From a virus, in IMG/VR virus record IMGVR_UViG_3300032235_000412, positions 1 to 34,127 of that record: DNA of 34,127 nt; one strand, given 5' to 3'. The notes beneath the pieces were generated by a model. The model worked only from the letters and a program-made list of their open reading frames with translations, was not told the DNA's origin and searched no databases. The translations under genes and the position numbers were made by a program. Below are positions 21,565 to 26,801 of the stretch, piece by piece. Numbering within the stretch: the stretch's first letter is position 1; each line of letters opens with the position of its first letter.

Positions 21565-22060
21565 TCGCGGATGCGATGACGGGATTTCGAGTGCGGATTT
21601 CAATGCCCGAGAGTTCCGCGAGCGCTTCATTGATTTCGTCTTTCAAGATCGACTTGGCTTCGTTGAGATTGTCGGCTGCATAGACTGCCGGCGCTGCCTT
21701 CGATGGAATGGCAAGCATCTTCGAGCGCATGTTCGATGCCATCGCCTCCCATGCGGCTGCAATATCTTCTGCCGGAATAAGGCGATTTTCCATCTGCGCC
21801 TTTTCCATTTCGGCAAGATCCGCTCGCGCCGCAGTCAATCGAGTGCGGTGGCTTGTGAGATCGCCGGTGACCGAAGATGCATCACCTTTAAGCGCTCGCT
21901 CGCGAAGGAATTTGATATAGCCACGAACACAAGGCACAAGCTCATATCGACCGCGTGAATGACGCGGAATGATACCGTCATTCACAAGCCGAGCGATGCT
22001 CTGCGGAGTTAGATCGAGCAGTTTGCAGATTGTTTCGAGCGGGAATGTTTGCGCTGCCAT
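21491..22060 (-). CDS. terminase small subunit (Nu1-like)
   Basis: A 189-residue protein that recognises the packaging site. The N-terminus is a winged-helix or excisionase-like DNA-binding domain (ICKLLDLTPQSIARLVNDGI then RHSRGRYELVPCVRGYIKFL), as in lambda Nu1. A charged helical region (ARADLAEMEKAQMENRL) serves in oligomerisation and contact with the large subunit. It starts on the stop of the Mom-like gene (TAATG) and overlaps the large-subunit start. The acidic low-complexity tail (DDGDIDSTAEPVGEPVG) is unusual and lies in the overlap. Confidence 0.85.
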   Translation of the reverse strand: MAAQTFPLETICKLLDLTPQSIARLVNDGIIPRHSRGRYELVPCVRGYIKFLRERALKGDASSVTGDLTSHRTRLTAARADLAEMEKAQMENRLIPAEDIAAAWEAMASNMRSKMLAIPSKAAPAVYAADNLNEAKSILKDEINEALAELSGIEIRTRNPVIASANVGTSAADDGDIDSTAEPVGEPVG

Positions 22061-22740
22061 TAGGTTTTATCCTTTGGAGCGTGTGGGTCAGTGTTGCACT
22101 GCCGCTGTTCCGAGGGGTTCTCGGTCATTGCCTGCTTCACACGCTTAGGATATGGCTTCGCAAGCGGAATAATACGATCACGCATCTCTGAGTCAAGTGG
22201 CATAAGATAGCGATATTTTCCCGGCACATCAACAACATATGCATTTTGATCTAGTTTTTGAGCGCCTGATAGATTTTGAATAAGCCCAAGAGATCCAAGT
22301 GATCTTGGATGCGTTAGTTTGTTTTTAATCATATAAAATTTTGCACTTCCGCTTTGCCCTGCATAAATCCAGTTACCAGCCTGATAGATTCCGCCATGAT
22401 GGTTTTGCGATTGATCGGCAAATGAAACGATAAGTTTTATTTTTGGATTTGATTTTTTCAAAAACTTTATGGCTATAGCTGCAATTTTAGAAACAGGCGT
22501 TTGATGTTTGGTAAGTGCAATTCGCACTAGTTCGACGCATTCGTCTTGCCCAAGATTATACGGATTTCCAAGATTAGGCGTTGCGCCGCGCGCAAACAAA
22601 ACAACTCCAATAAATTTATTATTTTCCCATGCACCAACTTTCACCAGTTTACCTACCGGGATGCATTTGCTGTAATGCCAGTTCTCACACGCAAACTTAG
22701 CTGCTTCGTGCGTAGCCCAGTCAATTTTTAGATCAACCAT
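22060..22740 (-). CDS. mom: Mom-like DNA adenine modification protein
   Basis: A 226-residue protein resembling phage Mu Mom, the GNAT-like enzyme that converts adenine in phage DNA to a carbamoylmethyl form and shields it from restriction. Shared-looking features are ENWHYSK (residues 20-25 region), FARGATPNLG, DECVELVRIALTKH and SFADQSQNHHGGIYQAGNW (about 106-124), the last resembling the acyl-CoA-loop region of GNAT folds. Start 22740 follows AGGA and overlaps the ParB-like stop by 8 bases. The C-terminal 25 residues are basic and proline-rich, an extension of unknown use. Assignment is by motif memory. Confidence 0.8.
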   Translation of the reverse strand: MVDLKIDWATHEAAKFACENWHYSKCIPVGKLVKVGAWENNKFIGVVLFARGATPNLGNPYNLGQDECVELVRIALTKHQTPVSKIAAIAIKFLKKSNPKIKLIVSFADQSQNHHGGIYQAGNWIYAGQSGSAKFYMIKNKLTHPRSLGSLGLIQNLSGAQKLDQNAYVVDVPGKYRYLMPLDSEMRDRIIPLAKPYPKRVKQAMTENPSEQRQCNTDPHAPKDKT

Positions 22741-23266
22741 TTTCGTGTTTCCTAGAATCAAACTCTTTTTGACAATGAGGGCACTTCACCATCTTTGGAT
22801 CGAGTTCATCTAGCTTGCCCTGATCGTCTTCTGTGCCGGGAGCAAAGTCAGCTTCGCTTAAATAAATTTTAAGCTCGGCATCATCGAAGCCAGTCAGGCT
22901 GAGATCAAAGTCTTCTTCCTTCAGCCCGCGCAATTCGTTGATCAGCATATCCTGATCCCAGCCCGAATTTAGCGCCAGCTTGTTATCGGCGATCACATAG
23001 GCTCTCTTCTGCGCATCGGTCAGATAGCCAAGCCGGATGCAAGGCACCTCAGATAGCCCGAGCTTCTGAGCCGCCATCACGCGCCCGTGGCCGGCGATGA
23101 TCCCGTTGTCGGCATCGATCAGGACCGGGTTCGTGAAGCCAAACTCCTTGATCGACCCGGCGATCTGGGCGGTTTGCGCCTCAGAATGAGTGCGAGAATT
23201 GCGAGCATATGGGATCAAATCAGCGGTTTTGATCTGCTCAATCTTCATAACTTTTGGCTGGTTCAT
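22733..23266 (-). CDS. ParB-like nuclease-domain protein with C-terminal CxxC
   Basis: A 177-residue protein. Residues about 10-130 are a ParB/Srx-type domain with the signature NGIIAGHGRVMAAQKLGL (GHGR at about 59-62) and IADNKLALNSGWD. In phages this domain is usually fused to, or next to, a DNA methylase. Here it stands alone, with a short tail KCPHCQKEF (C162, C165) that may bind zinc. It overlaps the Mom-like gene by 8 bases, so the two are almost certainly co-translated. ParB-like domains bind DNA and some bind CTP; the activity here is unknown. Confidence 0.82.
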   Translation of the reverse strand: MNQPKVMKIEQIKTADLIPYARNSRTHSEAQTAQIAGSIKEFGFTNPVLIDADNGIIAGHGRVMAAQKLGLSEVPCIRLGYLTDAQKRAYVIADNKLALNSGWDQDMLINELRGLKEEDFDLSLTGFDDAELKIYLSEADFAPGTEDDQGKLDELDPKMVKCPHCQKEFDSRKHENG

Positions 23267-23391
23267 CTTAATTTAACACCCCTATTTATTTTCTGTCGCT
23301 AGGAAAGACTCGCGGTCGCGCGTTACCCGCGAGTGGATTGCCGTGGGAGGACCCGAAACCCTAGACATATCAATAACTTGGCAAAAATTAA
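23267..23391 (-). promoter_or_regulatory. 125-bp leader of the ParB-Mom pair with hairpins
   Basis: This is one of only two sizeable gaps in the leftward arm. It holds an inverted repeat CTCGCGG / CCGCGAG at 23309-23315 and 23327-23333, and an AT-rich hairpin GGCAAAAA / TTTTTGCC at 23380-23387 and 23396-23403 that spans the stop codon of the upstream methyltransferase gene. CGAAACCCTAG (23354-23364) resembles CGAAAACCCTAG in the repeat block at 24730. It probably controls the two genes separately, but no good promoter is obvious. Confidence 0.4.
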
Positions 23392-23949
23392 TCATTTTTT
23401 GCCACCTACGAAGCGATAGGCATGACCTATAGAAAATTCTTCTAGCATGTTGAACCGCTTGCATAAGAGGTCTCTCCAATAGCCGTCTAACTCGACAGTC
23501 AGGTGCAGGGTCTCTCCGATCAATGCGCCACAACTGTCCCGTCCGGTTGCGATCTGAAAGAAACATTTGTTGAGCGTTGCCTTCTCGATGCAGTCGAGGG
23601 TGCGCTCGACATAGTCGGGGGGGATATGCTCCATGACATCCGCGCAGAATGTGTAGTCCGCCCGCAGTTCCTCCGATAGATCCCAGAGGCATTGGTTAAC
23701 AAACGGGAGATAGTTTATCTCGACGGCTGTGGTCACGAAGTCTACCAGCGTGACGCTGAGACCCCTATCGGCGAAATAGTTACCAGCTCGACCCGTGCCG
23801 CATCCCATATCGATCAGGCTCTCGCCCTCTCGACACTGCATTGCAGCATAGGCGACGGGTGCGGCATCCAAGCCTGGAGACCAGCCACGGTACTCCTTGA
23901 AGCTCCACATACGCTCATACTTCCTGCGCTCTTTGTCCTCGGTTGTCAT
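23392..23949 (-). CDS. class I SAM-dependent methyltransferase
   Basis: A 185-residue Rossmann-fold methyltransferase. Motif I is SLIDMGCGTGRAG (about residues 44-56), the acidic residue of motif II follows in VTLVDF, and CADVMEHIPPDY matches the post-motif region. No NPPY/DPPY is present, so it is not a typical adenine or N4-cytosine DNA methylase. The substrate could be a small molecule, a protein or a modified base. It overlaps the upstream gene by ATGA. Its place beside the ParB-Mom pair makes a part in DNA modification plausible but unproven. Confidence 0.8.
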   Translation of the reverse strand: MTTEDKERRKYERMWSFKEYRGWSPGLDAAPVAYAAMQCREGESLIDMGCGTGRAGNYFADRGLSVTLVDFVTTAVEINYLPFVNQCLWDLSEELRADYTFCADVMEHIPPDYVERTLDCIEKATLNKCFFQIATGRDSCGALIGETLHLTVELDGYWRDLLCKRFNMLEEFSIGHAYRFVGGKK

Positions 23950-24533
23950 CGTGCTGTCCTTATCGCATTGCGAAGTGCTGTTCGGTAGTTCTTCTGAAAC
24001 TCGGTGTTGGCGACCTTGTTGGCATCCTCATAGAAGGGGAAGCGCTTAGGGATATTGGCTGACGGTTCGAGGATGTAGAGGATCTTGAGCGGCTGGCCCT
24101 TCTGGCGCTGCAAGATCGCCGTGTCGGTCCTGAAGACATCCTTTCGGTTGAGCATGCTCCTCGGTCGGTCGGACTTACGGATAGCCCCGCCAGCCGTTCG
24201 CGCCGTGTTTCGGACGCCGGGGATGGCAAGGTTGTTTCCTTTGGGCGTCTTGGTCCCGCCTTTGGCTTGGCGCTGGAGATAGTCCCTGCCGAGCTTATCG
24301 AAGACCCGAGCGTTCAGTTTGGTCTTGTTCGCGGTCTCGACCCGGAGAACAGAATTGATGAACCGGGAGTTCCTGACGGTGAAGGAGTCGGGATAGGTAT
24401 GCTGGACGATCTGCCGGCGGATCTGGAACGCCGTATCGTTGAGAGCCTTGGACTGAGCGAAGGGGATCTGCCTTTCGATCCGCTTAACCCTTTCCATGAC
24501 CTCGAGGACGTTACTCTTGATATCCAGCCTCAT
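23946..24533 (-). CDS. minor tail / neck protein similar to lambda Z
   Basis: A 195-residue basic helical protein starting MRLDIKSNVLEVMERVKRIE. The segment QIPFAQSKALNDTAFQIRRQI and the Arg/Lys-rich remainder resemble lambda Z or HK97 gp10-type neck proteins that complete the tail. Such a gene normally sits between portal and tail genes. Here it is upstream of the terminase, next to a methyltransferase, which is an unusual place. The stop and the next start overlap (ATGA). Identification by opening motif only. Confidence 0.65.
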   Translation of the reverse strand: MRLDIKSNVLEVMERVKRIERQIPFAQSKALNDTAFQIRRQIVQHTYPDSFTVRNSRFINSVLRVETANKTKLNARVFDKLGRDYLQRQAKGGTKTPKGNNLAIPGVRNTARTAGGAIRKSDRPRSMLNRKDVFRTDTAILQRQKGQPLKILYILEPSANIPKRFPFYEDANKVANTEFQKNYRTALRNAIRTAR

Positions 24534-24534
24534 G

Positions 24535-24639
24535 TCAAAACCCTTTCATCCATTGCCCGACGATCATGCCGAAAACAAACCACGCAAGCCAGCTTGTGAA
24601 GAGGACTTTCTTCCAAAACCATCGATCCTCTGGATTCAT
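24535..24639 (-). CDS. 34-residue membrane peptide
   Basis: A 34-residue peptide, MNPEDRWFWKKVLFTSWLAW then FVFGMIVGQWMKGF, with one membrane helix flanked by charged ends. GGGG lies 8 bases upstream of the ATG. A longer frame reaching 24771 exists, but it would read through the telomere-like repeats, so the inner start is preferred. The stop is one base from the neck-protein start. Role unknown. Confidence 0.55.
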   Translation of the reverse strand: MNPEDRWFWKKVLFTSWLAWFVFGMIVGQWMKGF

Positions 24640-24672
24640 TACCTCGACCCCTTCTGCGCGACGAACCCTTAA

Positions 24673-24694
24673 CCCTAACCCTAAAGGGTTAGGG
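24673..24694. repeat. telomere-like inverted repeat CCCTAACCCT / AGGGTTAGGG
   Basis: Two 10-bp arms separated by AA, so the DNA reads as consecutive CCCTAA units followed by their mirror, TTAGGG. A further GGTTAGGG follows at 24694-24701 with one extra G. As RNA it would form a very stable hairpin. Confidence 0.85.
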
Positions 24695-24702
24695 GTTAGG
24701 GA

Positions 24703-24731
24703 GGGTTCAACATGTCGCTTTTTTGCCCTCG
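24703..24731. repeat. 29-bp direct repeat, copy 1
   Basis: The first of two copies of a 29-bp unit: GGGTTC-R-ACATGTC-R-C followed by six T, then CCTCG. It matches the copy at 24761-24789 at 25 of 29 positions. The unit contains ACATGT, itself a palindrome, followed by a fixed T6 run. Start-to-start distance between the copies is 58 bp. Confidence 0.85.
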
Positions 24732-24742
24732 AAAACCCTAGT

Positions 24743-24764
24743 ACCCTAGGGTTAACCCTAGGGT
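24743..24764. repeat. perfect 22-bp palindrome ACCCTAGGGTTAACCCTAGGGT
   Basis: A perfect palindrome made of two ACCCTAGGGT-like half sites (each itself symmetric, CCCTAGGG) around a TTAA centre. Such two-tier symmetry suits a dimeric or tetrameric DNA-binding protein. It touches the second 29-bp direct repeat. Confidence 0.9.
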
Positions 24765-24789
24765 TCGACATGTCACTTTTTTATCCTCG
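24761..24789. repeat. 29-bp direct repeat, copy 2
   Basis: The second copy of the unit described at 24703. It overlaps the right end of the 22-bp palindrome by 4 bases and ends 2 bases before the primase-helicase stop codon. Confidence 0.85.
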
Positions 24790-24791
24790 TT

Positions 24792-26801
24792 TTACTGCCC
24801 ATTTTTACGCATCAGCATCACGCTCAGCTGGGTCTCGCAAACCACCTTCCAGCCCTGTGAGACGGGTTGGATGATATCATTTTGCAGTAGCATCCCGATC
24901 AGTTTGTCCGTGTAGGACGGGTTCATCATATTCTTGACCGTTCGGTCGGCATTTCCATCCGCCAGCAGTTTGTCTTTGAGAGCCGACCGGGACAGGTAAG
25001 GCGAGCCGTCATGTTCCTCGGCCCCGCCCGCCCACCATGCATTCTCAAACAGCTTCAGGTTCGCCTCGACCTTCGACCCACGTTTCTTTTCGACCGGCGC
25101 ATCGGCCTCGACCAGAACCGCGCTGGTGACCTGGACCCCATCCTCATCGAGCCAGCCGGGTATCTCGATCTTATGCAGATTGCAGAAGAGTGGCTCGCAT
25201 AGCTCGGCATCCTTGCTCTTGCGTTGGACGAGCTGCATAGGCTCGCTGCCCTTTGCCGGCACAACGCTGATCTCGATATCGAGAGCGCCACGCCATGCCG
25301 AAGATCCTCGCGCCCGATGCTGTGCCTCATCTGAAACGCCGGTGTGATGGACTAGGATCACCGAACAGCCAAATTCCCGCATGAGAGCGCCACAGGCATC
25401 GAGCATGGTCTTGGCATCTTGAGCCGAGTTCTCATCGCCAGCCAAAAAGCGGTGAAGCGTATCGACCACAATCACGCCGGGACGGGTCGGCAGCTTGCGA
25501 ACATTATCCACGACCCGAGAATAACCGGCTGCGGTATTAAGATCGCATCCGTCCCTCGATAGCCACATATTGAGCTTGCCGGCCTTATGATGCTGCTTCC
25601 AAGCCGCCACACGCGATCGCAGCCCGTGATGGCCCTCACCAGCCAAATAGACCACCGGGTTCGATCGGACGCGAGACCCGCGCCAATTCTTTAGCCCTGC
25701 CGCCATCGACAGACACCAATCGAGGACCACGAATGTCTTTCCGCCGCCGCTTGGCCCGTGGACCATGATCAGCGCATCAGATTGCAGCCAATGCTTGACC
25801 AGCCATGAGATCGGAGCGGGCTTCGAGCAGAACTCATCCGCCGGGATCAGCCAATCATCGATCGGCGGATCGAGCAGCGCCATCAGATCATTTCCGGCTT
25901 GGACGTAATCATTCGCATCGCCCAGCACCGGAGGCATAACCATTCTTGCACCATATTTCGCGGAAGCTTGCTCGGCATATCGCTGCCCAACGCCGGAGGC
26001 ATCATTATCAGCCACAAGGACGATATCCTGCGTTGCGCCATATCGATCGCGCAAATGCCCAGTAACCGGGACCAGATTGGAGGCTGAATAGGCGACCACG
26101 ACCGGACGCCGGGTTGCCTCGTGAATGGTCGCGGCAGTGGCGAAACCCTCGGCGACATAAAGAGTGCCGGGCTCATCAAGAGTGCCGATCATCCAAGAGC
26201 AGCCGCCCGTTTGCGCCCCGGCATGGTAGAGCTTGCCGCCATCCTGATCGATATATTGAACGGAGGAGATCGAGCCGTCTGGCTGGTAGAGCGGCACGAC
26301 CAGCCGCCCATCGCCGGTAACTCTAGCACCGAGTGGCTGGATTCCCTTGCGCCGGAGATAGGGATGGTCTGGGTGAGCGCCGGTGCAATCGTTCCAGATG
26401 GTCTCGACCGTCTGGGCTTTAACCTCGCGCTGGACCGCCAGAGCCGCATCCCGAGCCGCCTTTGCCTCGGTCATCCGGCGAACATGGGCGATTTCCTCGG
26501 ATGGGGTTGGCTTGCGCCCTATATCGGCCCGCCATGACGATTCGATCCCGGCCCGCCAGCATCCGAATCGCCCAGCCGGAATGCCATCGCTGAAGGCGAT
26601 ATACCAGCCGGTCTTATCGCCATGCCCGCCGGCGCCTTTCGAACCGGATCGAAAGCGGTGGATCTTGCCATCTAGGATGATTTCGGAGGGTGTTTCTAGG
26701 CCCGAAGCCCGTATTGCGTCAGCAAGCTGAACCTCTGGAGAAGCGAGCGGGACAGATACCGGCGACCAAGCTCCTCCGAGAATATTCGTTAGATCTGTCA
26801 T
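24792..26801 (-). CDS. Toprim primase fused to RepA-type (AAA) helicase
   Basis: A 669-residue replication protein. The N-terminal half contains a Toprim domain (LYVAEGFATAATIHEAT, Glu at about 218; DND at 265-267) that would make RNA primers. The C-terminal half is a RepA/RecA-like helicase with Walker A GPSGGGKT (349-356) and Walker B VIVVDT (443-448), plus CSVILVHHTGV. It would open and prime phage DNA for the host polymerase, as no phage polymerase is present. The start overlaps the stop of the HTH gene (ATGA). An unusually long C-terminal region of unclear role follows. Confidence 0.9.
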   Translation of the reverse strand: MTDLTNILGGAWSPVSVPLASPEVQLADAIRASGLETPSEIILDGKIHRFRSGSKGAGGHGDKTGWYIAFSDGIPAGRFGCWRAGIESSWRADIGRKPTPSEEIAHVRRMTEAKAARDAALAVQREVKAQTVETIWNDCTGAHPDHPYLRRKGIQPLGARVTGDGRLVVPLYQPDGSISSVQYIDQDGGKLYHAGAQTGGCSWMIGTLDEPGTLYVAEGFATAATIHEATRRPVVVAYSASNLVPVTGHLRDRYGATQDIVLVADNDASGVGQRYAEQASAKYGARMVMPPVLGDANDYVQAGNDLMALLDPPIDDWLIPADEFCSKPAPISWLVKHWLQSDALIMVHGPSGGGKTFVVLDWCLSMAAGLKNWRGSRVRSNPVVYLAGEGHHGLRSRVAAWKQHHKAGKLNMWLSRDGCDLNTAAGYSRVVDNVRKLPTRPGVIVVDTLHRFLAGDENSAQDAKTMLDACGALMREFGCSVILVHHTGVSDEAQHRARGSSAWRGALDIEISVVPAKGSEPMQLVQRKSKDAELCEPLFCNLHKIEIPGWLDEDGVQVTSAVLVEADAPVEKKRGSKVEANLKLFENAWWAGGAEEHDGSPYLSRSALKDKLLADGNADRTVKNMMNPSYTDKLIGMLLQNDIIQPVSQGWKVVCETQLSVMLMRKNGQ

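Follow-up and report, generated by a model that had tools for sequence, protein, structure and literature searches.

In the model described for SaPIs, Gram-negative PICIs and SCCmec Cch2, iterons lie directly 3' of a helicase gene and are bound by the C-terminal domain of its product (PMC7581432). Replication from the SaPI and PICI rep-ori units has been shown (PMC7581432, PMC6092414), and the isolated C-terminal domain of Cch2 binds AAGTG iterons in vitro (PMC7581432). According to the summary in PMC4234260, the primase and helicase of the P4 alpha protein are parts of one polypeptide, which also has a winged helix at its C-terminus for binding short repeats. In the archaeal plasmid pRN1, the replication gene is followed immediately by the non-coding DNA that holds the origin (PMC4234260).

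The locus analyzed here belongs to a virus record of 34,127 bases (the window), in which a cluster of six-letter words occupies the non-coding DNA directly 3' of a primase-helicase gene. Reading the element in the direction of the helicase means reading the minus strand. With a probability of about 0.85, as judged from sequence comparison, this element is a replication origin of the iteron type, to which the primase-helicase of the phage itself binds. Among the papers searched, none reported an origin for these phages.

The element is the densest repeated-word region of the window genome. Nine exact copies of AACCCT/AGGGTT fall inside 24551-24800, with at most two in every other 250-nt stretch of the genome, and in 20 Markov simulations of the same genome size no 6-mer exceeded 6 copies, the best one of each run having 4-6. 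Two copies of the 23-nt core AAAAAAGYGACATGTYGAACCCT are present, where shuffles give an expectation of zero. The repeats described in an earlier sequence-only reading are present at the positions and in the numbers given there: the 22-bp palindrome ACCCTAGGGTTAACCCTAGGGT (24743-24764) is perfect and occurs a single time in the genome, the 29-bp repeats (24703-24731 and 24761-24789) are identical at 25/29 positions, and the inverted repeat of CCCTAA units extends a little further than claimed, with arms at 24666-24682 and 24685-24701 that are 88% complementary. The gap (24640-24791) is indeed non-coding, bounded on one side by the stop codon of the helicase (24792) and on the other by a 34-codon ORF. 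The label "telomere-like" holds for the spelling of the window lineage's word only. The spacer between the two word sets (24708-24733) is 26 bp long with 46% GC and contains an A6 run, and its A6/ACATGT part recurs at 24766-24791; no such duplicate leader was seen in those relatives whose element sequences were compared. Elsewhere in the window, three consecutive genes (22060-23949) encode a Mom-like protein of DNA modification (Pfam Mom, E 1.4e-44), a ParB-like protein and a methyltransferase; they lie between a tail-completion-like gene and the terminase small subunit.

Table 1. Features of the putative origin and of the genes on either side of it, in window coordinates.
Feature	Position	Strand	Basis
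Whole element, putative replication origin	24654-24791	-	Layout kept 3' of homologous helicases; word density
A6/ACATGT leader AACGAGGATAAAAAAGTGACATGTCG, extra copy before first iteron set	24766-24791	-	Sequence, 25/29 repeat identity
Iteron set 1, helicase-proximal: AACCCTAGGGTTAACCCTAGGGTACTAGGGTT, includes 22-bp palindrome	24734-24765	.	Exact words at 24734, 24748, 24754, 24760
Spacer TTCGAGGGCAAAAAAGCGACATGTTG between iteron sets	24708-24733	-	Counterpart of relatives' GGGCAAAA(N)GCG spacer
Iteron set 2, distal: AACCCTCCCTAACCCCTAACCCTTTAGGGTTAGGGTTAAGGGTT, inverted repeat	24664-24707	.	Exact words at 24664, 24671, 24677, 24685, 24702
GC-rich tail of element	24654-24663	read along minus strand	
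Downstream gene: 34-codon small hydrophobic protein, element boundary	24535-24639	-	GAGGT (ribosome-binding-like) before ATG
Primase-helicase gene, encoding the putative initiator that binds the origin: TOPRIM + RepA-like helicase (AAA_25) + C-terminal winged helix	24792-26801	-	Pfam, covariation
C-terminal winged helix, codons 575-655	24837-25079	-	AlphaFold2, residue/word association

The primase-helicase is assigned by Pfam to AAA_25 (E 3.8e-35) and Toprim_3 (E 1e-11). AlphaFold2 modeled residues 570-669 with a mean pLDDT of 91.1, the full-length model shows the same elements, and the predicted recognition helix comprises residues 619-626 (DRTVKNMM). A sequence profile of the winged helix gave no usable match in the PDB. 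A fold search returned generic winged helices as matches of middling quality, the best of which (Z 6.9, rmsd 3.0 over 75 residues) was tied with many unrelated ones; the C-termini of P4 alpha and SaPI Rep are absent from these matches, which excludes nothing.

Conservation in close relatives, which had been proposed as a check on the repeats, gave a divided answer, as the letters are not kept but the architecture is. A scan of viral contigs for the exact pattern GACATGTYGAACCCT returned 61 matches, among which only the window itself has the pattern beside a homologous helicase. Therefore, the literal repeat is not conserved. Among 80 helicase relatives from IMG/VR (65-83% identity), however, the same layout is present directly 3' of the gene in nearly all that have enough DNA, and it also directly follows the helicase in the cultured phages CGphi29, 1N2-2, XX1924 and PB15 and in the environmental genome ct3Oc712. 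This layout consists of words in both orientations, a GGGCAAAA(N)GCG-like spacer, and words again around a small C-T[T/A][T/A]A-G centre. Within the 250 nt that follow the helicase, the most frequent 6-mer has at least six copies in 199/266 loci; in coding stretches of equal length from the same 266 loci the maximum is five, and none reaches six. Within the close family, the TOPRIM and AAA_25 gene is followed by a top word of at least five copies in 187 of the 225 helicase loci.

The word itself changes by lineage. There are 29 word groups among 143 non-redundant loci, the majority beginning with GG, and they include GGGTCA, GGTAAC, GGGGGC, GGTACG, GGTCCG, GGAACG, GATACG, GGGACA, GGTTCA and GGTACA. 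In each of the six genomes inspected, there is one word cluster. The remote AAA_25 helicases examined number 40 and include ones from bacterial chromosomes; a word with at least six copies accompanies 21 of them, compared with 0/40 control stretches. The remote loci L394-L437 lie in bacterial chromosomes and MAGs (L394 in Methylotuvimicrobium, L414 in Mycoplana, L423 in Bradyrhizobium) and have C-terminal domains that look unrelated; it is possible that these helicases and their word clusters represent satellites or integrated replicons. In the loci L148-L222, an unrelated N-terminal domain replaces TOPRIM ahead of the AAA_25 helicase and winged helix, and the word element (GGGACA) is still found 3' of the gene. 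A helicase clade comprising L299-L337 and similar sequences (about two dozen loci) has a different C-terminal domain, which is without the usual helix pattern (..SRRNLIDGKDARYINNLIDAKLIE..), and has no word cluster in the nearby DNA. The origin in this clade may be elsewhere or of another kind.

The helicase loci are phylogenetically non-independent, and support for a link between word and protein was drawn from matched comparisons and natural experiments. When helicase cores are at least 0.90 identical, the identity of the winged helix is 0.87 in pairs with the same word versus 0.60 in pairs with different words, with the core (0.93) and TOPRIM (0.90) equal in both kinds of pair. None of 300 Mantel permutations reached the observed partial correlation. 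On trees covering 15 words, for which the lowest possible count is 14 changes, the minimum number of word changes is 37 for the core, 42 for TOPRIM and 21 for the winged helix. The word of the nearest neighbour is the correct prediction in 88% of cases when the recognition segment is compared, versus 58% for TOPRIM and 9% at random; if voters are limited to those with core identity <0.75, the corresponding values are 62%, 36% and 6%.

Residue by residue, association with the word is near zero over TOPRIM and the helicase core, reaches 0.53 over 616-640, and is 0.12-0.16 over 641-669. Of the single positions, 623-625, 627 and 617 show the strongest association, and these lie in or next to the helix at 619-626. 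As judged from this covariation, word specificity tracks the C-terminal winged helix, with a peak at the predicted recognition helix, and does not track the rest of the protein. Helices of the form R-[T/S]-[V/I/A]-x-N (in which R is window residue 620) go with GGG in all eight such word groups, a rule that is post hoc and has exceptions in the GGGACA group, which lacks the R, and in L129, which has the R but the word GGTAAC.

Between the window helicase and its closest relative (L063, word CTACCC), identity is 0.91 in the core and 0.92 in TOPRIM versus 0.33 in the winged helix. The winged helix is nearest the GGGTCA group (0.67 with L065, at a core identity of 0.75), and GGGTCA is one letter off GGGTTA. 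By these identities, the window helicase is a mosaic.

The suggestion of an origin in the sequence-only reading is thus well supported, by the conserved position, by the covariation of word and winged helix, and by DnaA boxes in relatives. The exact box TTATCCACA occurs 103 times in the 48.7 kb lying within 350 nt of a helicase stop versus 38 times in 1.01 Mb elsewhere, a 56-fold difference; it is present in 52/142 of the relatives' loci, where it frequently flanks the words on either side, and the window itself has none. Cumulative GC skew, which had been put forward as a further indicator, has its minimum 2-3 kb from the element. This minimum follows a divergent promoter, and the skew is therefore uninformative about an origin. 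The same reading had also allowed for a site for an unknown phage protein. Because all of the covariation points to the winged helix of the adjacent primase-helicase, the protein that reads the words is probably not an unknown one but this C-terminal domain.

In the proposed mechanism, the two sets of AGGGTT/AACCCT words, each an inverted repeat, flank a spacer of ~26 bp that includes an A6 run. The primase-helicase would bind the words via the recognition helix of its C-terminal winged helix, and the bound subunits would assemble as helicase rings. These rings would melt the spacer or DNA close to it, and one polypeptide would then both unwind and prime. Many relatives probably also have the help of host DnaA at adjacent DnaA boxes. 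Points that count against an origin are the window's lack of a DnaA box and the minority of relatives that have one, the helicase clade with no word cluster nearby, the short spacer that is not AT-rich, the middling fold matches and the distance of the GC-skew minimum from the element.

The covariation appears to report recognition alone, and does not distinguish replication from other outcomes such as autoregulation. The same winged helix could accordingly bind the words to regulate its own operon or the downstream genes, with the element not being an origin at all, and such a role would suit its placement after the helicase and ahead of further genes of that strand. This is nevertheless unlikely. 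Neither an intrinsic terminator (a GC stem followed by a T run) nor a promoter-like site was found in 24400-25000, the word is absent from the Cro-type divergent promoter upstream of the helicase, and it clusters nowhere else in the window genome; many relatives, moreover, carry host DnaA boxes flanking the element. An operator for the modification and late genes, as had been suggested, is disfavored by the same absence of the word from the Cro-type promoter region and of any second cluster. Autoregulation by the primase-helicase may, however, coexist with a role as an origin.

Terminase sites often contain repeats, and a lambda-type GpA terminase is encoded about 2.6 kb from the element in the window phage, which raises the idea of a packaging site (pac or cosB) at which the small subunit of terminase would bind the words. 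This explanation is very improbable. In XX1924 and PB15, the small terminase is 5-6 kb away and the element stays beside the helicase; the element also co-occurs with unrelated virion modules, including a P22-like one in ct3Oc712, and its words track the helicase winged helix. A packaging site was rejected because the position of the element follows the helicase, not the terminase.

It is also conceivable, with a likelihood smaller still, that word and winged helix are associated through linkage, in that the gene's 3' end and the adjoining non-coding DNA recombine as one unit without any recognition. The winged-helix codons directly adjoin the element, and the two seem to move jointly: L103 and L070 are identical in TOPRIM (1.000) and nearly so in the core (0.988), but their winged helices share 0.476 identity and their words are GGTAAC and AGGGGG. 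However, the association drops over 641-669, the 29 codons nearest the element, and linkage alone is therefore insufficient as an explanation. The winged helices of L250 and L240 are 96% identical, with few residue changes that include a V->Q substitution in the recognition helix, yet the words differ (ACGGAA versus GGTAAC). The match between word and helix also persists across a 1-kb insertion in L235, which has a GGTAAC-type helix and no cluster beside the gene, but seven copies of GGTAAC, the word predicted from the helix, and DnaA boxes 1 kb downstream, past an inserted gene. This insertion (L235:5134-6027) is a 297-aa ORF of the PlsC-like acyltransferase type, by likeness, which separates the primase-helicase from the putative origin; it is possibly a moron insertion or an assembly chimera.

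An RNA element or terminator in the helicase mRNA is equally remote. The folding is strong (z about -5) and slightly better on the sense strand, but this advantage disappears against dinucleotide shuffles (-2.10 versus -2.09 kcal/mol; 74/143), and no role for RNA explains a word that follows a DNA-binding helix. A search of the element against Rfam gave no match at the gathering score. A TIGR-TasH system has been described in Salicola phage CGphi29 (L440; PMC12045711), and a TIGR array was considered for the repeats of this phage and rejected, as the units reported for that array, made up of dual repeats and spacers, are unlike the element.

If the primase-helicase does read the words, a putative origin can be read from the sequence beside the helicase gene in hundreds of uncultured phages, and the recognition word would be predictable from about 17 protein residues. 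What appears unusual is the large natural set of matched initiator and origin words, which is both diverse and readable. Such pairs would offer a system in which to study how the specificity of replication can change in evolution while function is retained, and could serve as orthogonal replicons for plasmid work. The chances are about even that these phages hold dozens of mutually exclusive initiator/origin pairs, switched by exchange of one contiguous winged-helix and origin cassette or by a few changes around the recognition helix, so that phages or satellites residing together neither fire nor titrate the origins of one another, and that the correspondence of helix to word amounts to a readable code.

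Among described systems, the SaPI and PICI rep-ori units share with this locus the position of the origin, here a putative one, directly behind the gene for the initiator-helicase, as well as short, lineage-specific iterons in two sets, and iteron specificity determined by the C-terminal domain of the helicase, which is indicated here by covariation. Unlike the SaPI Reps (DUF927 or D5/Primase_Cterm), the window helicase is by Pfam an AAA_25 protein (RepA-like, RecA fold) fused to TOPRIM. The carriers are complete phages rather than satellites, as the window encodes terminase large and small subunits and a portal and the cultured relatives are complete. In place of an AT-rich region between the iterons there is a short 26-bp spacer of 46% GC, the iterons are strongly arranged as inverted repeats, and DnaA boxes often flank them in relatives. 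SCCmec Cch2 likewise has short (5-nt) iterons just downstream of the helicase gene, but three direct repeats only, a D5-type helicase and a separate primase.

The C-terminal winged helix on a primase-helicase, here predicted with a pLDDT of 91, is a feature of P4 alpha as well. The helicase class of P4 alpha differs from the AAA_25 class, however, and P4 replication needs two sites, ori and crr, in contrast to the single cluster per genome here (six genomes). The locus resembles pRN1 in its position after the replication gene and in strong stem-loop folding whose letters are not kept between relatives, but pRN1 has one large stem-loop, for which repeated words are not described, and an archaeal-type primase with an SF3 helicase. 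The RepA/RepB'/RepC system of RSF1010 also combines a RepA-like hexameric helicase with iterons and hairpins; in the summary given in PMC4234260, a separate protein, RepC, reads those iterons, whereas helicase, primase and putative reader are one protein here.

A cluster of repeats with a cognate initiator, the general mark of an iteron origin, is present at this locus, with recognition read solely from covariation. By analogy, its mode of action is like that of the SaPI/PICI and P4 origins, but it is classed as neither because the helicase class, the spacer and the type of element differ. An organisation of the origin described as unique to phage-inducible islands thus appears to exist in complete phages with another class of helicase, and would therefore be either convergent or shared through the exchange of modules.
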